Source: Gammaproteobacteria bacterium (GTDB lineage: Bacteria > Pseudomonadota > Gammaproteobacteria > Pseudomonadales > Azotimanducaceae). Taken from it: 33,224 nucleotides of DNA. The notes under the pieces were generated by a model that was not told the DNA's origin, made no database searches, and worked only from the letters and a program-made list of their open reading frames with translations. Positions 10,016 to 23,354 of the stretch are shown in pieces. Each line of letters starts with the position of its first letter. Positions within the stretch are counted from its first letter, which is position 1. The DNA is taken from positions 1 to 33,224 of the forward strand of contig VXPO01000102.1 in assembly GCA_009839505.1 (NCBI GenBank), in the 5' to 3' direction. The position numbers and the translations under genes are program-made.

Positions 10016-11239
10016 CTAGCCCGTCTCGCCTGGCGCACCGTTGGCCTCGATCTCGGTGACCAGCTTCGAAGCGATCTCCCGGGTCCAGGCGGAGGTGCTC
10101 GGAATGCGCGACCGGTCGACGCGGTGAATGTACTTCTTCGCCACGTCGACGAGTTCGGTCAACAGGCCCGTCTGCAGCCTGATCGGATCAAGGCCGAGGG
10201 CCACGAACTGGTCGTTCCTGACACTGAGTTCGTTCTCGGCCGCCTCCTTGCGCGGGTTCGGCAGACAGGCGATCTCGGCGCCCGTCAGCTCGCTGACAAG
10301 CTTCGCGAGGTCGCGAACCCGGTGCACTTCGGTCATCTGGTTGAAGATCTTCGTGCGTTCGCCGCGCTCCGGGGGATTGGCGAGCGCGATCTCGATGCAG
10401 CGTACCGAGTCCTGGATGTGGATGAAGGCCCGGCTCTGGCCACCGGTGCCGTGAACGGTGAGCGGGTGATGGAGCGCCGCCTGGATCAGGAAGCGGTTCA
10501 GAACCGTGCCGTAGTCGCCGTCGTAGTCGAAGCGATTGATGAGCTGCTCGTGGCGCCGGGTCTGGTCCGTGTGGGTACCCCAGACGATGCCCTGATGCAG
10601 ATCGGTGATCCGTACGCCGTCGTTCTTGGCGTAGAACTGGAACAGCACCTGGTCGAGGCACTTGGTCATGTGGTAGATGCTGCCTGCGTCCGTGGGGTAG
10701 AGGATCTCGCGCGCCGTCTTGCCGCCGTCGTCCAGGGTCACGTCCACCGTCAGGTAGCCCTCCGGGATCGACGCGCCCGCGGTGGAGTAGCCGTATACGC
10801 CCATCGTGCCGAGATGAACGACGTGGGCATCGAGTTCCGTCGCCACCAAGGCGTTCAGCAGGTTGTGCGTGGCGTTGACGTTGTTGTTGACCGTGTAGGT
10901 CTTGTGGCGATCGCTCTTCATGGAGTACGGCGCCGCACGTTGTTCCGCGAAGTGGACCACGGCCTCGGGTCGCCAAGAGGCGAGCCAGTCTTTGAAGCGC
11001 TCGTAGTCGCCAGCCACGTCGATGTGTTCGAATTCGAGTGAGCGACCGCTCACTTCCTTCCAGATCCGCTGCCGCTCTTGGATCGAGTCCATCGGTGTGA
11101 GCGACTGCACGCCGAGTTCGGTGTCGATCCAGCGGCGACTCAGGTTGTCGACGACGGCAACCTCGTGATCGAGGTTGGAGAGATGTAGCGTCGTCGGCCA
11201 GCCGATGAAGCCGTCACCGCCGAGTACCGCGATTCGCAC
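10016..11239 (-). CDS. sqdB: UDP-sulfoquinovose synthase
   Basis: A 407-residue SDR enzyme that makes UDP-sulfoquinovose from UDP-glucose and sulfite using bound NAD. Diagnostic stretches are GGDGFIGWPTTLHLS (residues 7-21), DNLSRRWIDTELG, HFAEQRAAPYSMK and TYTVNNNVNATHNLL. Thr145 and the pair Tyr189/Lys193 (YHMTK) are the expected catalytic residues. The length matches the plant SQD1 and bacterial SqdB core. The GTG at 11239 starts directly at the Rossmann strand (RIAVLGGDG). It is the first gene of a minus-strand operon with the GT8 and SDR genes, and is divergent from the SMUG1-type gene across 86 bp. It implies the cell makes a sulfolipid or another sulfoquinovose glycoconjugate. Confidence 0.92.
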   Translation of the reverse strand: MRIAVLGGDGFIGWPTTLHLSNLDHEVAVVDNLSRRWIDTELGVQSLTPMDSIQERQRIWKEVSGRSLEFEHIDVAGDYERFKDWLASWRPEAVVHFAEQRAAPYSMKSDRHKTYTVNNNVNATHNLLNALVATELDAHVVHLGTMGVYGYSTAGASIPEGYLTVDVTLDDGGKTAREILYPTDAGSIYHMTKCLDQVLFQFYAKNDGVRITDLHQGIVWGTHTDQTRRHEQLINRFDYDGDYGTVLNRFLIQAALHHPLTVHGTGGQSRAFIHIQDSVRCIEIALANPPERGERTKIFNQMTEVHRVRDLAKLVSELTGAEIACLPNPRKEAAENELSVRNDQFVALGLDPIRLQTGLLTELVDVAKKYIHRVDRSRIPSTSAWTREIASKLVTEIEANGAPGETG

Positions 11240-16663: not shown

Positions 16664-16890
16664 TAGGGATCATCTTGGTGCCCGTGGTGATCTTCCTGGC
16701 GGCTGTTGGCGTCGACGCTTGGGAGAATCGCGGACGTAAGCGTTCGCTTGAGGACTTGGGCGAGAGTCTGGATCGGGCCAAGGACGCAGCTCTTAAGGAG
16801 TTCCAAGCCCAACAGGATGAGCGCGTAGAACGGCTCCGACGCCAAGCTCGGGCTTTGGGTGAGATTCGCGAAGGAAGCGGGAGCAGATAG
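16636..16890 (+). CDS. Small single-pass membrane protein with coiled-coil tail
   Basis: An 84-residue protein not recognised as a named family. Residues 5-27 (LIGWAIGIILVPVVIFLAAVGV) form one membrane segment. The rest is charged and helical (SLEDLGESLDRAKDAALKEF, then QAQQDERVERLRRQARALGE), likely a short coiled coil on the cytoplasmic side. Its last 32 nt overlap the longest possible sulfatase frame. The sequence looks coding, with acidic/basic heptads rather than shadow composition, but no function can be given. Confidence 0.6.
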   Translation: MVETLIGWAIGIILVPVVIFLAAVGVDAWENRGRKRSLEDLGESLDRAKDAALKEFQAQQDERVERLRRQARALGEIREGSGSR

Positions 16891-18286
16891 ACATGACTAC
16901 CTGCATTGGGAACGTCCACTGTCAAGCCTGAGAAAACAATCGCCGTGGCCCGGTAGAGTGGCGGGGTTTGCGCTGGCGGTTATCGCCGCCGCGCACGGTG
17001 CCGCAGCGGACGACCGTCCCAATATCGTGCTGATCATGGCGGACGACCTGGGCTACGGGGACATCTCGCCCTTCGACGGCTGGATCGAGACCCCGAACCT
17101 CGAGGCGCTCGCCGAGCAGGGCGTCCGCTTCACCGACTTCCACACCAGCGGCAACGTCTGCTCGCCGACCCGGGCCGGCCTCCTGACCGGACGCTACCAG
17201 CAGCGCGCTGGACTACCGGGCGTACTGTTCGCCAACGCCGCCCGCCCGGAACACCGACACGGGTTGCAGGACGTCGAGGACACGTTCGCCGAACGCCTGC
17301 ACGAGGCGGGCTACGCCACCGCGCTGTTCGGTAAGTGGCACCTAGGATATCTACCCAGGTTCAACCCGGTTAGACACGGCTTCGGGCGCTTTCGCGGCTT
17401 CGTGAGCGGCAACATCGACTACGTGTCGCACATCGACACCACGGGTCGCGCCGACTGGTGGGTCGATGACGAATTGCAGGCGGAGGAGGGCTACTTCACC
17501 GAACTGGCTACCGATCACGCGGTGCGGTTCATCGACGAAAATAGGACGCGCCCCTTCCTGCTCTACCTCGCGCACCATGCGCCGCACTATCCGTTCCAAG
17601 GGCCATCGGATCCCGCCGAACGCAGCGTCGGCGGCGAGTTCAATCCCCAGGGTGCCCGCCCGGACAAGCGCGAGGCCTACCGCGAGATGGTGCAGAGCAT
17701 GGACGTCGGCATCGGCAGGGTCGTCGCCGCGCTCGAAACGAACGGACTGCGGGAACGGACGTTGATCTGGTTTTTCTCCGACAACGGCGCGGCGTCCCAG
17801 TGGGGCTCGAACGGCCCGTTGCGCGGCAGCAAGGGGACGGACTGGGAGGGAGGCCACCGGGTTCCCGCGATCGCCTCCTGGCCCGGCCAGATCGGAGCCG
17901 ACTCGGTCAGCCACGCCGTTGCCTCCACGCTGGACGTCATGCCCACGATCCTGAGCCTCGCCGGCATTGCACCCAATGCCGAGCGACCCTTCGACGGCAT
18001 CGACCTGACGCCCATGCTGCTGGACGGCGAGCCGCTACCGTCCAGGCAACTCTTTTGGGGCGGCGACGGCGTATTCTGGAACGGTGCCGCGGTCCGTGAC
18101 GGTCCCTGGAAGCTCGTCATCGACCGCTACCGGGATTCGCCGGGGCGACCCATGCTGTTCAACCTCGACGACGACCTCGGGGAAACCACCGATCTCGCGA
18201 CCCAACACCACGGCCGCGCTAAGCAGTTGTTCGCCGCCTTGTCCCGATGGCGGGACGATGTTGCCCGTGGCGCCACGCCACAGTAA
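16859..18286 (+). CDS. Type I (formylglycine-dependent) sulfatase, exported
   Basis: A secreted arylsulfatase-family hydrolase of up to 475 residues. The maturation motif CSPTRAGLLTGRY starts at Cys101 (converted to formylglycine by a sulfatase-modifying enzyme not in this window), with Arg105. ADDLGYGD (61-68) gives metal ligands, GKWHLG gives Lys/His, and FFSDNGA gives the late Asp-Asn pair. A hydrophobic segment RVAGFALAVIAAAHGAAA, cut before DDRPN, is the signal peptide. The start is uncertain: GTG 16859 gives a long n-region, GTG 16958 a very short one. The final 16 codons are duplicated at 19852-19898 beyond the fic gene, with only synonymous changes after the first codon. Confidence 0.9.
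   Translation: MRFAKEAGADRHDYLHWERPLSSLRKQSPWPGRVAGFALAVIAAAHGAAADDRPNIVLIMADDLGYGDISPFDGWIETPNLEALAEQGVRFTDFHTSGNVCSPTRAGLLTGRYQQRAGLPGVLFANAARPEHRHGLQDVEDTFAERLHEAGYATALFGKWHLGYLPRFNPVRHGFGRFRGFVSGNIDYVSHIDTTGRADWWVDDELQAEEGYFTELATDHAVRFIDENRTRPFLLYLAHHAPHYPFQGPSDPAERSVGGEFNPQGARPDKREAYREMVQSMDVGIGRVVAALETNGLRERTLIWFFSDNGAASQWGSNGPLRGSKGTDWEGGHRVPAIASWPGQIGADSVSHAVASTLDVMPTILSLAGIAPNAERPFDGIDLTPMLLDGEPLPSRQLFWGGDGVFWNGAAVRDGPWKLVIDRYRDSPGRPMLFNLDDDLGETTDLATQHHGRAKQLFAALSRWRDDVARGATPQ
18240..18286 (+). repeat. Left copy of duplicated sulfatase 3' end
   Basis: These 47 bp, in frame and ending with the sulfatase TAA, match 19852-19898 at 44 positions. The three mismatches fall at third codon positions and do not change the amino acids. 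Together the copies flank the fic gene like direct repeats of an insertion. Confidence 0.85.
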
Positions 18287-18317
18287 GTCGTGGGGGGCGA
18301 AGAGCGTTCCGGCGCTG

Positions 18318-19721
18318 TTAGCCTCGGTTGGCCGCATCCCAGACTTCCCACCAAGCGTCGAACTCGCCGGCTGACACTCGGTAGCGCGCGTAGTTGCCTT
18401 CGTGGAGGCCCAGAAGTTCCGTTTCGGCCATCTCGTGGAAGCGGTCTCGGTCGCCAGCTTCGACGTTGGCCGCAACCCAAGCTGCAACGCGCGTGGCTGC
18501 CGATCCAACGTCCAAACGGTTGCGGACTACCTCGCCAACGAGTTCTCGCAACGCCTCGCGGTGTCGAAGCCTGAACGGATCCGGTTCGCCGACCGATTGT
18601 CTGATCGCGCCATACCGGCCGGCGGAACGTTCGTACGCCCAGAGGAATAGATTCTTCAGCAGGTGCGTGTCGTTCTGCTCGTACACCAACAGGACCGCGT
18701 CCGAGTAGTAATCCCTTGGTACGTCGCTAAACGACAGCGGCGAGAGGTTGTTCTTGATGAGCGGTATGTTCGCCGCGAGGCGCGACACTCGCTTGTTAAC
18801 GTCGTCGAAGGCCTGAAGGTAGGGAATCTGGACCAAGCAGAACAGCGCTTGTTCGAACGGGTCGCCAATCGCCTGCGCTGACGCTAGGACCTGGTCGAAG
18901 CACTCTTCCACCTGTGCCGGAACTTCGAGCGGACGATAGGCGGACGCTCCAATACCAACCGGCCTACTCCTTAGCCGGCCTGGGGCTGCAGGGTCCGGCA
19001 GTAGGTTCTCTGCCAGTGTCGCGTGTAGGTTGAGGATCGTGCGGCGGTCGAACCGGACGTCGTTCACGCTCTCGACGAGGAACTCGATCGCGTGTTTGTG
19101 GTTGAGGATCATCTGCGTCTCGCGGATGTCCGGACCCTCGGCCGGGTCGCCCAGTTCGATCAGTCTTTTCGTGTCGAGCAAGGAATAGGTGTTGCCTTCC
19201 AGACGGCTCGAATTCCAGGAGAGGTCGATCAGCATCCGATCAATGATCCGCCTAGCGTGGGTTCCCGCAGGCTCTGGCGTCTCGGCGAACTGGCCCATGC
19301 CACGAAGCCTGGTTCGTTCTTCCGCCGATAGGTAGGCGCTGACGTTCGGAACGTAGTTGTCCAGGAACTCCCGACGATAGCCAACGGGCGGGCGCTGATT
19401 GGCGGGCTGCAATAGGTATCGTTGCCGGAGTTCGCCACGAAGTCGATAAAGGTCGCCCGGGACGACCTCCAGTCGGACGTCTACCTTCGGCGGTCCCGCC
19501 TGGGCGTGGACCCTCAGGTCTATTTGGCGCAACTGATAGCGGGTTGCCCGACCATGTCCTTGCCGGATGAGCCGCTTGTTTTCCACCAGCCGCCCGAGCC
19601 GGTATTGGAGGGTGCGCCGTGGCAACGCGGCATCCAGTTCACGGGCGATGCCCTGCACGCCGATTCCATTCGGATGACGGCCGACCACGGCTTCGATCTC
19701 CCTGAACTCGTTCTCGAGCAT
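18318..19721 (-). CDS. Winged-helix/Fic-fold protein with inhibitory motif and degenerate Fic motif
   Basis: A 467-residue protein. An N-terminal winged-helix-like region (1-75, with IGVQGIARELDAALPRRTLQ) is followed by a Fic domain. SSRLEGN at 171-177 is the alpha-inh motif (S/TxxxEGN) that blocks ATP in autoinhibited Fic proteins. The catalytic loop reads QAFDDVNKR at 303-311 where canonical Fic has HxFx(D/E)GN(G/K)R: His is Gln303 and Gly is Val308, so AMP transfer is doubtful. The tail (AYERSAGRYGAIRQS, GEPDPFRLRHR) fits a known Fic subfamily. ATG 19721 is chosen because upstream in-frame codons read back through the operator region and the antisense of the displaced sulfatase tail. It lies between duplicated sulfatase ends and was probably inserted. 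Confidence 0.85.
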   Translation of the reverse strand: MLENEFREIEAVVGRHPNGIGVQGIARELDAALPRRTLQYRLGRLVENKRLIRQGHGRATRYQLRQIDLRVHAQAGPPKVDVRLEVVPGDLYRLRGELRQRYLLQPANQRPPVGYRREFLDNYVPNVSAYLSAEERTRLRGMGQFAETPEPAGTHARRIIDRMLIDLSWNSSRLEGNTYSLLDTKRLIELGDPAEGPDIRETQMILNHKHAIEFLVESVNDVRFDRRTILNLHATLAENLLPDPAAPGRLRSRPVGIGASAYRPLEVPAQVEECFDQVLASAQAIGDPFEQALFCLVQIPYLQAFDDVNKRVSRLAANIPLIKNNLSPLSFSDVPRDYYSDAVLLVYEQNDTHLLKNLFLWAYERSAGRYGAIRQSVGEPDPFRLRHREALRELVGEVVRNRLDVGSAATRVAAWVAANVEAGDRDRFHEMAETELLGLHEGNYARYRVSAGEFDAWWEVWDAANRG

Positions 19722-19735
19722 CGATTCAAACACGG

Positions 19736-19824
19736 TTGCGCAATTTGCGCGATTGTTGCACGATTGACCTAATCGCGCAACATCGACCTTGCGTGAATAA
19801 GACGGTGCGTTGTCATTTGCGCAA
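19736..19824. promoter_or_regulatory. Array of TTGCGC(GATT) boxes upstream of fic: probable operator
   Basis: Boxes: TTGCGCAA (19736-19743), TTGCGCGATT (19745-19754), TTGCACGATT (19756-19765), inverted AATCGCGCAA (19771-19780) and TTGCGCAA (19817-19824). The 19756 and 19771 boxes form a 10-5-10 imperfect palindrome. All lie within about 105 bp upstream of the fic ATG, as expected for a site bound by the protein's own winged helix. I saw no such cluster elsewhere in the window. Confidence 0.6.
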
Positions 19825-19851
19825 CTCTCGACGCTCCCTACGGCGCCTAGG

Positions 19852-19898
19852 TGTCCCGATGGCGTGACGATGTTGCCCGCGGCGCGACGCCACAGTAA
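19852..19898 (+). pseudogene. Displaced sulfatase 3' end (right copy)
   Basis: In frame it reads VSRWRDDVARGATPQ and stop, against LSRWRDDVARGATPQ in the intact sulfatase. The three internal base differences (CGG/CGT, CGT/CGC, GCC/GCG) are all synonymous, and the first codon differs at the edge. No more of the sulfatase is present upstream. TAGGTGTCCC (19848-19857) spans the junction. The remnant lies 41 bp upstream of the Rieske gene. Confidence 0.8.
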
Positions 19899-19939: not shown

Positions 19940-21139
19940 ATGCGACACGACGAACGACAGCGGCTGATCGACATCCTGAAGGACGGTCTGGAGAACGGCG
20001 GACCGGTGCAGGGGGAAGGCATCGTCAAGAGCCCGCTGTCCGACTACACCTCGCCGGAACTCCTAGCCGAGGAGCGCAAGGTCTTCTTCCGCGAGACGCC
20101 GCTTTTCATGGGCCTGTCCGCGGACCTGCCCGAAAACGGCAGCTACTGGGCCGACAGCGAGACCGGTCTGCCGATTTTGATGACCCGGGACGACGAGGGA
20201 CGTTTCCGCGCATTCGCCAACACCTGCAGGCACCGGGGTGCACAGGTCGTCCCGGACGGTCGGGGCACGCAGGTCCGGTTCAGCTGCCCGTTCCATGCGT
20301 GGACCTACGGCAGCCGCGGAGACCTGATCGCCGTCACCAAGGCAGACCGGTTCGGCGAGATCGACAAGTCCGAGCACGGCCTCATCGAACTACCCGCCGC
20401 CGAGCGCTACAACATGCTGTGGGTGAAGCCGACGCCGGGTGGCGAGATCGATGTCGACAAGTGCCTGGGCGGACTCCAGGACGATATGGCGCATTGGAAC
20501 CTGGACGTGACCAGCTTCGCGGCTTCCCAAGTGCTCGATGCCAAGATCAACTGGAAGCTCGCTATCGACACCTTTGGCGAAAACTATCACTTCGATGTTC
20601 TGCACCGGGAGAGCCTTGCCAAGGATATCCGCGGCAACCTCCAGACCCACGACACCTTCGGCCCCAACTACCGCATGGTTTTCGCCTTTACCCGGTTCCC
20701 GGAGATCGCCAAGGAGGTGCCAGATCAAAAGGACTGGCCGTTCAGAATAATGACGCTGTCGGTCTATTTCATCTATCCCAACGCGATCTTCCTGGTCGAT
20801 CCGCACGCCGTGGACGTACTGCGCATGTTCCCCGACGCAGAGAACCCCGCAAGGAGCACGACTGCCCACAGCTACTACGTTCTACCCAAAGTGAAGGCTT
20901 ACTTCGAAGACCCGGAGTTTCCCGAACGCAACTACGAAGAGCGCTTCGAGGGCTTCAACCACGTCATCATGGGCGAGGACTACCGCATGGCCGAGTCCAC
21001 CCAGCGTTGCGCGGACACGGGCATCCAGAGCCACATCCTGTTCGGCCGCAACGAACCCGCGCTACTCCACTACCACAACGCCCACCGGCGAGGATTGGGC
21101 AGGCCATTGCTTGAACCCGTGGTGGAAGCCGAGGCCTAG
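19940..21139 (+). CDS. Rieske-type aromatic ring-hydroxylating oxygenase, alpha subunit
   Basis: A 399-residue oxygenase large subunit. The Rieske [2Fe-2S] ligands are Cys96-x-His98 (NTCRHRG) and Cys116-x2-His119 (SCPFHAWTYG). The catalytic domain has the mononuclear iron histidines in GENYHFDVLH (His217, His222), and GEDYRMAE near the end is a candidate for the acidic ligand. It needs an electron-transfer reductase, which is not nearby. There is no beta subunit gene. Family members hydroxylate aromatics, carnitine or other quaternary amines. An AAGGTGGA site precedes the ATG. The VOC-family gene downstream could act on the product, as in a dihydroxylation and ring-cleavage pair (inference). 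Confidence 0.92.
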   Translation: MRHDERQRLIDILKDGLENGGPVQGEGIVKSPLSDYTSPELLAEERKVFFRETPLFMGLSADLPENGSYWADSETGLPILMTRDDEGRFRAFANTCRHRGAQVVPDGRGTQVRFSCPFHAWTYGSRGDLIAVTKADRFGEIDKSEHGLIELPAAERYNMLWVKPTPGGEIDVDKCLGGLQDDMAHWNLDVTSFAASQVLDAKINWKLAIDTFGENYHFDVLHRESLAKDIRGNLQTHDTFGPNYRMVFAFTRFPEIAKEVPDQKDWPFRIMTLSVYFIYPNAIFLVDPHAVDVLRMFPDAENPARSTTAHSYYVLPKVKAYFEDPEFPERNYEERFEGFNHVIMGEDYRMAESTQRCADTGIQSHILFGRNEPALLHYHNAHRRGLGRPLLEPVVEAEA

Positions 21140-21164: not shown

Positions 21165-21253
21165 GCCGTAGGGGCGACCCTTGTGGTCGCCCTCGTTGGC
21201 AACCGACGCCGTGCGGCGACCCCACGGGCGACCACAAGGGTCGCCCCTACGGC
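21165..21253. repeat. Perfect 28-bp inverted repeat (palindromic repeat element)
   Basis: The arm 21165-21192 is exactly complementary to 21226-21253, with a 33-nt centre. The arm core is GTAGGGGCGACCCTTGTGG, a sequence type scattered through many bacterial genomes. It sits between the Rieske stop and the VOC start and ends only 14 nt before that ATG, so it may attenuate or uncouple the downstream gene. No T run follows, so a simple intrinsic terminator is less likely. Confidence 0.85.
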
Positions 21254-21267
21254 TTCCCGTTAACCGG

Positions 21268-21741
21268 ATGGCAACACCCACAGGCAGAGCCACCAGCGGA
21301 CTAGCCCCGAAACAGTTGGGACACCTGGTCGTGCAAGTGCGCGACCTAGATCGGGCGGAGGACTTCTACACCCGTATCCTCGGCCTCTCGGTGACCGCGA
21401 AGTTCGACGGACACGCGGTGTTCATGTCCGCGAACACGGAGCTGTCGCACGAGCTCCTGATCGTGCCGGCGAAAGACGACTCGCCGGAGAGCCAGACTTC
21501 GGGGCTGGTCCACATGGCTTGGCAGATGGAGTCTTTCGAAGATCTCAAGGCGCTCCATCGGCGACTGAAAGACAACGACATCGAGATCGTGGGTATCGGC
21601 GACCACGGACTGTCTCTCGGGGTCTACTTCCGCGACCCCGATGAGAATGAACTCGAGGCGTACTACGAAAAGCCCAAGGCCGAGTGGGAGACGGGCGGGA
21701 AGCACATCTTCGATTCGAAGTTCCCGCGTCGGCTGGAATAG
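21268..21741 (+). CDS. VOC family protein (glyoxalase/extradiol dioxygenase fold)
   Basis: A 157-residue single-module vicinal-oxygen-chelate protein. It opens LGHLVVQVRDLDRAEDFYTR with metal-ligand candidate His19. Second-half ligands are His82 (LVHMAW) and Glu130 (ENELEAYYE), a full 2-His-1-Glu set. Length fits one-domain members, which include glyoxalases, fosfomycin enzymes and small catechol 2,3-dioxygenase-like proteins. ENELEAYYE is typical of the last. Its ATG lies just beyond the 28-bp inverted repeat and lacks a clear ribosome site. Its stop overlaps the GTG of the outer-membrane gene by 1 nt. Confidence 0.85.
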   Translation: MATPTGRATSGLAPKQLGHLVVQVRDLDRAEDFYTRILGLSVTAKFDGHAVFMSANTELSHELLIVPAKDDSPESQTSGLVHMAWQMESFEDLKALHRRLKDNDIEIVGIGDHGLSLGVYFRDPDENELEAYYEKPKAEWETGGKHIFDSKFPRRLE

Positions 21742-22706
21742 TGTCCGGCGCTCCAGCTAGTCGAAGCACGAATTGCGCCGGGAAGGGCTGCAGACGTCAT
21801 CTCGCGGTCGCGCTGGCATGCGTAGGCGCGCTGCTCGGAACCAAGCTGAATGCGGACTTCTACTTCGGCGCTGCAGTCGGCGGCGACCGGTTGCCGTCGA
21901 TGCGCCTCGTATCCGGCGACGACGATCGCGCGAGCCGTTGCGACGAGTACATCAACCCCCGCTATGCCGAACTCCCGGCCTGCACCGCCCCAGACCGGTC
22001 TGTCGGCGCGGCGGACGCGTGGTCAAGCCGGTTCGCCAGCGCGTGGGGCGCCCAGTCCGGGGTTGCCGTCGGCTATCGGCTTGGAGAGCGGTATCGAATC
22101 GAACTGGAAGCCGACTACGGCAGCGTCGGTCTGGACACATCGTCTCCCATCATTGCCCCTTCCGGCATCCCCTACGACACCGTGGCGGCACCCGAACTTG
22201 CCGATGCCTACGAACGAATCGGCAACGCCAAGTTTCTTGGCCTGTTCGTCACCGCCTACGTTGACTTGCCCAACCCCAGCCGTTTCACCCCGTTTATCGG
22301 CATCGGCACCGGCGTCGGCTTTGCCAGCATGGACTACGACGTTCTCTGGGAGCGAACGGACAATCTCGACAACATCGTATACGCGGGTGCCGGCCTGCCC
22401 AACGAGGACGAGATCCGGCGCAATCTGGTCGGCGGCGACACGCGTGCCCGGCAGCGGCTGCGCGACCGCCTCGGCGCGGCCCACGTAACCCTTGGCATCG
22501 GCTATGCGTTGACCGAACGGATGTCGCTGGAGATTCGGGCGCGGCACGTTAGGTCCTCGGCGTTCGGCGACGGGGGCTCCTACATCACCCTTCGCGGCCA
22601 CCCGTCCGGACTGCGTCGCGACGGCAGCGAGCCCGTGCGCTGGCATGTGGGCACGGAGGATACGAGCCGGACCCATGTCGGGCTGCGCCTGAATTATCGT
22701 CTTTGA
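21741..22706 (+). CDS. Outer-membrane beta-barrel protein (OmpA-like/OMP_b-brl type)
   Basis: A 321-residue protein with a signal-like N-terminus (GCRRHLAVALACVGALLGTKLNA), then alternating hydrophobic strands typical of an 8-stranded barrel: DFYFGAAVGGDR, GVAVGYRLGERYRIELEADY, FTPFIGIGTGVGFASMDYDV, AHVTLGIGYALTERMSLEIRAR and a closing VGLRLNYRL. The start GTG overlaps the VOC stop by one base. It probably sits in the outer membrane. Role unknown: a structural porin-like protein, or a channel for the aromatic substrate of the neighbours, is only a guess. Confidence 0.8.
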   Translation: MSGAPASRSTNCAGKGCRRHLAVALACVGALLGTKLNADFYFGAAVGGDRLPSMRLVSGDDDRASRCDEYINPRYAELPACTAPDRSVGAADAWSSRFASAWGAQSGVAVGYRLGERYRIELEADYGSVGLDTSSPIIAPSGIPYDTVAAPELADAYERIGNAKFLGLFVTAYVDLPNPSRFTPFIGIGTGVGFASMDYDVLWERTDNLDNIVYAGAGLPNEDEIRRNLVGGDTRARQRLRDRLGAAHVTLGIGYALTERMSLEIRARHVRSSAFGDGGSYITLRGHPSGLRRDGSEPVRWHVGTEDTSRTHVGLRLNYRL

Positions 22707-22952: not shown

Positions 22953-23354
22953 CTAGCAGCCTGTCGAACTTCGCGCGCCAGCGGCGAAGCCGACAGGGTG
23001 ATAGGTGGGTGCGAACAGCGTGTACGTGCCGCCATACAGCTGCGGCACCGTGACGATGTTGTCGCCGGCCTCGGCAAGGTTGAGGATCGAGTAGTTGATC
23101 GCGGCGCTTCCCGCGGACACAACGAGCGAGCCGACGCCCTTCTCGAGTGCCGTGACGCGTTCTTCGAGCACGGCTTGCGTCGGGTTCATGATCCGCGTGT
23201 AGATGTTCCCCGGCACCGCTAGGTTGAACAAGTCGGCGCCGTGCTGCGCGTCGTCGAACTCGTAGGAAACCGTTTGATAGATGGGGACGGCCACGGCCTT
23301 GGTGGTGGGTTCCGATTCGTAACCGCCGTGAATGGCAATGGTTTCGTCTTTCAA
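22953..23354 (-). pseudogene. Truncated O-acetylhomoserine sulfhydrylase (MetY-type), N-terminal quarter only
   Basis: The frame opens [20 protein letters not shown] and continues [49 protein letters not shown] and [10 protein letters not shown], a clear match to the PLP-dependent Cys/Met metabolism family. A full enzyme is about 430 residues. Here recognisable sequence stops near residue 117 and the next 16 codons come from the hairpin region. The PLP lysine and the rest of the active site are missing, so the product cannot be active. The start and upstream region look intact. Nothing is seen in 23355-23484. Confidence 0.85.
22960..22997. repeat. Imperfect hairpin at the metY breakpoint
   Basis: CCTGTCG and CTTCGC (22960-22974) pair with GCGAAG and CGACAGG (22984-22997), with a small internal bulge. 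Homology of the truncated metY frame to its family ends within a few bases of this hairpin, so it marks the deletion or insertion joint. Confidence 0.6.

Follow-up and report, generated by a model that had tools for sequence, protein, structure and literature searches.

Based on the comparisons reported here, we suggest that a gene for a Fic-domain protein (fic) on contig VXPO01000102.1, from a metagenome bin of a gammaproteobacterium of the Azotimanducaceae, was moved by a few kilobases through local duplication and loss. In the window, by which we mean the whole 33,224-bp contig (contig 22 of the bin, referred to as G000, which comprises 4,699,526 bases in 181 contigs), the 3' end of a sulfatase gene is present twice, once as the end of the complete gene and once as a short tail on the far side of fic. 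This second tail is probably the scar of the duplication and loss and not a mark of foreign integration. Starting from the gene order of congeners (G003, G010 and G011 were compared), the order in the window can be derived by one tandem duplication and losses from each of the two copies. Remnants of the lost copies lie at the predicted places, clearly so in the case of the second tail and only suggestively in the case of a possible relic of a VOC gene.

The comparison set consisted of 15 other genomes of the genus, one per species. Six of the 15 (G001, G002, G003, G004, G010 and G011) contain the dioxygenase of the locus at an identity of at least 85%; they were chosen by this match and compared in detail, the G001 bin being 81% complete. 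The corresponding regions of G007, G008, G012 and G013 were compared by BLAST alone, G006 was used only for the piece with fic and a 1131-codon gene, which contains a run of N, and the locus-level comparison left out G005, G009, G014 and G015. The presence of the sulfatase in congeners was judged by DNA comparison, and the gene was found at an identity of at least 80% in two of 57 other genomes searched, G010 and G011. The features of the window on which the argument relies are the following.

16859-18286, plus strand: sulfatase open reading frame (ORF; Pfam Sulfatase), with its last 47 bases, 18240-18286, as tail copy 1; the G010 and G011 orthologues have about 82% DNA identity
18287-18317, no strand: 31-bp gap from the sulfatase stop to the fic stop; 18289-18316 resembles the VOC end (21727-21752) and is a possible relic of a deleted VOC copy
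18318-19721, minus strand: fic coding sequence, probably displaced from downstream of VOC; orthologues adjoin VOC and the 1131-codon gene in G003, G010 and G011
19722-19851, no strand: 5' flank of fic, containing six TTGCGCAA-like octamers; can be compared with the interval between fic and the 1131-codon gene in congeners; ends at the TCCC of the 1131-gene end
19852-19898, plus strand: tail copy 2, a 47-base sulfatase end that runs into the dioxygenase upstream region
19853-19857, plus strand: GTCCC at the junction; GTCCC also occurs at the end of the 1131-codon gene in G011, G003, G002 and G004 (GTTCC in G010)
19940-21139, plus strand: Rieske dioxygenase alpha subunit (ORF, Pfam and congener matches)
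21298-21741, plus strand: VOC (glyoxalase family) gene, the last third of which (about 21592-21741) is of the fic-linked haplotype
21742-21774, no strand: putative deletion junction, where the window runs straight to OMP; fic and the 1131-codon gene occupy this place in G003 and G011
21684-22706, plus strand: ORF for an outer-membrane beta-barrel-like protein (OMP; Pfam match under the cut-off); its orthologue follows the 1131-codon gene in G002, G003, G004, G010 and G011

The sulfatase end on both sides of fic

A direct repeat duplicates the final 47 bases of the sulfatase gene, including its stop codon; 44 of 47 positions are identical, and the two copies enclose fic as the single gene between them. 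A 111-bp query around copy 1 matched only these two places in its own genome (E <= 0.001), the second with E = 7.8e-14. Thus, an earlier note on this DNA was right that the sulfatase 3' end recurs across fic with three silent differences, and that copy 2 arose by duplication of a gene end. Read in the sulfatase frame, all three fall at third codon positions: CGG/CGT (Arg), CGT/CGC (Arg) and GCC/GCG (Ala). Because about 27% of the single-base changes in this stretch are silent, three silent changes out of three have a P of about 0.02 if one copy had drifted freely. The tails of G001, G010 and G011 assign one change to copy 1 and one to copy 2 and leave one ambiguous, and for the change on copy 1 silence is expected because copy 1 belongs to the live gene. 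With three differences and a P of about 0.02, the silent-only pattern is weak evidence, and so is the conclusion previously drawn from it that copy 2 stems from another sulfatase under selection.

Beyond the two stop codons, the sequences are dissimilar by eye. Tail 2 continues like the tail of G001 (TAATCTCGCC...), and other sequence follows tail 1. From the stop codon to the dioxygenase start there are 41 bases for tail 2, compared with 43 and 46 bases for the single tails of G010 and G001, respectively. Because tail 2 continues in the same way as G001 and its spacing to the dioxygenase matches that of G010 and G001, we read the tail 2/dioxygenase joint as the old one and the sulfatase/fic joint as the new one. 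These two congeners are also the relatives without fic at this site to which the earlier note had pointed as a check: both have one tail beside the dioxygenase and none of fic between, with only 81 bp of the sulfatase present in G001. A hairpin at the break was considered and rejected; GTCCCG and CGGGAC could pair in tail 1, but the tails of G010 and G003 fold otherwise.

Gene order in congeners and the two junctions

In G011, the order is sulfatase, a helix-turn-helix gene, dioxygenase, VOC, fic on the opposite strand, the 1131-codon gene and OMP. G003 has the same order, but its sulfatase is reduced to the last 42 bases. In G010, sulfatase, dioxygenase, VOC and fic follow each other up to a contig end inside fic, and a second contig has its end inside fic, beside the 1131-codon gene and OMP. 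The gene is absent from G002 (42-base sulfatase tail, helix-turn-helix gene, dioxygenase, VOC, 1131-codon gene, OMP), from G004 (dioxygenase, VOC, 1131-codon gene in two frames, OMP; without a sulfatase tail) and from G001 (81-base sulfatase remnant, dioxygenase, VOC, then a different gene). The order in the window is sulfatase, fic, tail 2, dioxygenase, VOC and OMP. Because three congeners carry fic beyond the dioxygenase and VOC, the fic gene of the window is best read as having switched sides of these two genes inside the block and not as newly arrived at the sulfatase. The earlier picture, in which fic came in as a segment next to the sulfatase, is not supported by these orders: in G003, G010 and G011 the same gene is flanked by VOC and the 1131-codon gene, at a distance of 1.8-2.7 kb from the end of the sulfatase, and the fic gene of the window keeps marks of that place.

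An orthologue of the 1131-codon gene was not found in the bin of the window (best match 46%); for this gene, Pfam gives a golvesin C-terminal domain only and NCBIfam no match. The sulfatase body has been lost in several congeners, with tails remaining at L069 9352-9393 (G003, 42 bp), L133 11990-12031 (G002, 42 bp) and L131 6118-6198 (G001, 81 bp). The helix-turn-helix gene between sulfatase tail and dioxygenase lies at L067 7789-8280 (G011), L069 8472-8948 (G003) and L133 11110-11586 (G002); the three proteins are 98-99% identical and MqsA-family-like, under the curated cut-off. The two G010 contigs, L068 at its start and L070 at its end, both break inside fic, suggesting that strains in that sample differ at this gene.

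The right junction carries a mark of the former position. Measured from an anchor at the fic start, TCCC is 140 bases away in the window, where it is part of tail 2. From the same anchor to the same point of the 1131-gene end there are 140 bases in G011, 142 in G010 (TTCC) and 146 in G003. By this spacing, we place the fic/tail 2 joint where the sulfatase tail and the 1131-gene end share (G)TCCC. The loss of sulfatase bodies with short tails kept, in G001 and in G002/G003, would also be in line with an ancestor with tandem sulfatases, in which the second full sulfatase left tail 2 behind and fic came in between the two. However, none of the six congeners has two sulfatases here, and a model of this kind does not predict that the start of tail 2 matches the 1131-gene end at a conserved distance. 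We regard tandem sulfatases as highly improbable.

At the left junction, the 31-bp gap between sulfatase and fic aligns with the last codons of the VOC gene of the window, its stop codon and the bases beyond over 28 columns, of which the final nine are identical. With permissive scoring, a score this high was reached by 10 of 4939 random segments and by 17 of 5000 shuffles (strict scoring: 57 of 4939 and 69 of 5000). For a 44-bp stretch, the corresponding counts are 59 of 4939 and 53 of 5000 with permissive scoring and 70 of 4939 and 85 of 5000 with strict scoring. The alignment is suggestive of a relic of a VOC end.

Between the gene orders and the repeat, which are observed, we infer the following steps. 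The ancestral order, as seen in congeners and as it would have been in the lineage of the window, was sulfatase–dioxygenase–VOC–fic–1131-codon gene–OMP. A tandem copy would have been made of the stretch comprising the sulfatase tail, dioxygenase, VOC and fic, up to the end of the 1131-codon gene, with the new joint at the 4-5 base match (G)TCCC between the 1131-gene end and the sulfatase tail. Copy 1 would then have lost the dioxygenase and VOC, so that the sulfatase stop is followed by a few VOC bases and fic, and fic and the 1131-codon gene would have been lost after the VOC gene of the second copy. The product would be sulfatase–fic–tail 2–dioxygenase–VOC–OMP. In an alternative route to the same scars, one replication error with two template switches would be followed by one later deletion. 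The copied DNA could have been the cell's own or that of a relative, and neither an integrase nor a transposase would be required. By the scars, tandem duplication, template switching and the use of a relative's DNA are indistinguishable from one another.

The reading that goes back to the earlier note is instead insertion of fic next to the sulfatase by a mobile element, site-specific or of another kind, with restoration of the gene end. The location of the repeat at a gene 3' end, with a left copy that keeps the sulfatase whole, is in line with this, as are fic relatives on plasmids (173 records; the eight listed are 53-59% identical). The single-tail site of G010 and G001 would pass for an empty site, but it is not specific since duplication predicts the same. 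However, no integrase, recombinase or transposase was found among 32 ORFs of the window scanned with Pfam, which were picked as likely genes from 126 ORFs of at least 90 amino acids, most of them overlapping other frames; for these 32 ORFs the remark in the note that an integrase is missing is correct. Moreover, the segment does not look foreign to the neighbourhood, the older fic site being in the same block and the fic flanks pointing there. The sequences of the gaps resemble an 89-bp inverted-repeat element of the window, described below, no more than chance. We consider insertion by a mobile element very unlikely. Transposition of fic by an inverted-repeat element was likewise rejected, the similarity between the fic flanks and the ends of the 89-bp element being at chance level (0.44 and 0.14 of random segments reach as high a score). 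Over longer times, fic may nevertheless be mobile because relatives occur on plasmids.

Exchange between species and the weight of the evidence

In an alignment of the VOC genes of the seven genomes, 20 fixed differences in the first 300 columns unite G000 with G001 and none splits fic carriers from non-carriers. By contrast, columns 300-450 contain 11 fixed differences between the carriers (G000, G003, G010 and G011) and the non-carriers (G001, G002 and G004). This split ranks first of the 35 four-against-three splits in these columns, the next having 2; the border at column 300 was picked after the alignment had been seen, and the contrast of 11 to 0 is post hoc. G002 and G003, which differ in having fic, are 95-99% identical per aligned block and 86% identical in the 250-base bin at the VOC end. 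On these patterns, fic appears to have been exchanged between species along with the last third of VOC; homologous recombination is the presumed route. The VOC gene of the window retains the fic-linked 3' end though fic now stands upstream. The idea in the earlier note of a segment that brings its own gene 3' end fits the situation at VOC, with the last third of which fic varies, but is not supported for fic at the sulfatase end.

The sulfatase and the fic 3' half do not point to a close donor. In the 3' half of fic, the window is the outgroup, with 87.9-90.1% identity to the others, which are 90.1-92.5% identical among themselves. Its sulfatase is 82.1-82.6% identical to those of G010 and G011, which share 87.3% with each other. 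The divergence of the sulfatase and the fic 3' half from congeners is about that of other genes here. A recent transfer of the whole segment of sulfatase and fic from a G010-like donor, considered since fic looked closest to G010 by BLAST, is held to be unlikely given the outgroup position in the fic 3' half and the low sulfatase identity. In the dioxygenase, G001 is nearest to the window (89.5% DNA identity), and in the CoA-transferase region G001 has 79.9% compared with 87.2-89.6% for the other five. From these comparisons, the region has recombined more than once, which limits what can be inferred about the ancestor.

A narrower form of the duplication-loss model is that DNA of a related strain made the duplication. 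The incoming DNA would have comprised the sulfatase end, dioxygenase, VOC and fic, the two tails would be two alleles, and the later losses would be the same. This form, the likelihood of which overlaps with that of duplication and loss as a whole, we consider possible but doubtful. It would account for all three tail differences being silent, for which P is about 0.02 if one copy drifted freely. The VOC haplotypes, the difference in fic between the closely related G002 and G003 and a fic 5' half nearest to G010 speak for exchange at this locus. On the other hand, the differences number only three, one of them on the live gene, and the sulfatase and the fic 3' half have no excess similarity to any sampled congener; a donor was not seen. 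A further proposal is that fic forms an accessory cassette that moves without an integrase by attaching to gene 3' ends: at VOC it would replace the last third on arrival, at the sulfatase it would duplicate the gene end, its promoter array would re-wire the neighbour, and both placements would arise by a single recombination route, with gene ends serving as the homology for landing. As a whole, this proposal is unlikely.

Several observations weigh against the duplication-loss model. A two-copy intermediate was not found among the six congeners compared in detail, with one genome per species. The end of the 1131-codon gene is known from congeners and not from the ancestor of the window itself. 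The VOC-like relic is short and was tested after a shared 9-mer had been seen, with P between 0.002 and 0.017 depending on scoring and length. Chance or selection is needed to account for a repeat that ends with the sulfatase stop codon. The break that removed the sulfatase body in G002 and G003 is within about 2 bases of the left edge of tail 2, at the same TCCC, a coincidence that is unexplained. G001, the nearest relative by the dioxygenase, is without fic and the sulfatase body and is low in the CoA-transferase region; the locus is mosaic and its ancestral state uncertain. Also, exchange likely touched the fic 5' half because the window is closest to G010 there (83.6% identity in the four-genome alignment, compared with 81.1% for G010 and G003 and 78.8% for G010 and G011). 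Finally, the window is a single contig of a metagenome bin, and its order is read from the assembly alone.

This last point bears on whether the arrangement is an assembly artefact. The window is one contig of the 181 in its bin, the G010 contigs break inside fic, and artificial joins do occur in these bins: the G002 dioxygenase gene (L133, about 10640-10860) has a 54-base exact repeat flanking about 80 bases and ten N. We had considered that repeat as an insertion with long repeats and rejected this because it flanks the N run and marks a scaffolding join. Between the tails of the window, however, there is not a single N, the tails differ at three bases, and a second copy of fic, the dioxygenase or the 1131-codon gene at comparable identity was not found in the bin. 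We consider an artefact to be very unlikely.

The fic gene, its neighbours and known systems

The product of fic contains a Fic domain (Pfam E 2.5e-9). The motif of Fic AMP-transferases is HxFx(D/E)GN(G/K)R. The sequence in the window, LQAFDDVNKR, departs from it, with Gln in place of the His of the aligned FICD homologue, and the same substitution is present in G003 and G011; the product is perhaps no AMP-transferase. In the 5' flank of fic, the octamer T[TC]GC[GA][CT][AG]A, a pattern defined after inspection of this flank, accounts for six of its 16 plus-strand matches in the window, and the matching interval has six in G003, four each in G010 and G011 and three in G006. These octamers are perhaps an operator array, which would now lie between the divergent fic and dioxygenase genes.

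The 89-bp inverted-repeat element lies at 21165-21253 and has perfect 28-bp arms. It is present in dozens of copies in the genome (82 matches over both strands; 40 of 244 candidates scored), and its flanks at 21165-21253 share no stretch past a chance-like 9 bases. In G011 and G001, the dioxygenase and VOC are nearly adjacent, without the element. Further downstream, 22953-23354 encodes a truncated Cys/Met-metabolism PLP enzyme of 133 codons that matches positions 1-115 of a 381-position model; its G001 counterpart is a 446-codon ORF.

Altogether, duplication and loss most likely changed the gene order here, in a small event whose traces are unusually easy to read. Although this event is finished, its joints still seem visible: a gene tail is duplicated, a second relic may be present, and the VOC allele points back to the former neighbour. 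Short repeats of gene tails beside displaced neighbour genes could be searched for across genomes, so that cases of duplication and loss could be counted. Between species, moreover, the Fic gene of this locus varies in step with the end of the gene next to it.

Reordering by duplication and loss has been described as tandem duplication–random loss in animal mitochondrial genomes (e.g. PMC5745709); the present case shares this principle and differs in being a single small event in a bacterial chromosome. In the literature listings that we sampled, a bacterial duplication-loss case with such scars was not plainly found, which is no proof that none is in print. For spontaneous rearrangements in Salmonella (PMC3411829), duplication joints are described at short direct repeats; the confirmed ones are at least 11 bp, shorter candidates having been largely screened out. 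The joint proposed here is likewise at a short direct repeat but of 4-5 bp. Brandis (2021, PMC8046335) ascribes insertions into a conserved operon cluster to duplication and asymmetrical loss, to transposons or to DNA of related species, and discusses the first of these for many of the changes in the cluster; the precise mechanisms were not determinable in that case and its account, as far as we can cite it, gives no junction scars, which are seen here. The closest likeness is to the SNAP model (Brandis and Hughes 2020, PMC7055797), in which a segment is duplicated and differential loss of genes from the two copies gives rise to a new bacterial gene order. Duplication with differential loss has been put forward as an important source of altered gene order in bacteria. 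SNAP is a hypothesis about duplications of at least tens of kilobases that arise at repeats and are maintained by selection, while the present event would span a few kilobases with a junction of 4-5 bases, and the role of selection is left aside. According to its authors' description, the completed process leaves no genome feature unique to the model; at this locus, short scars remain.

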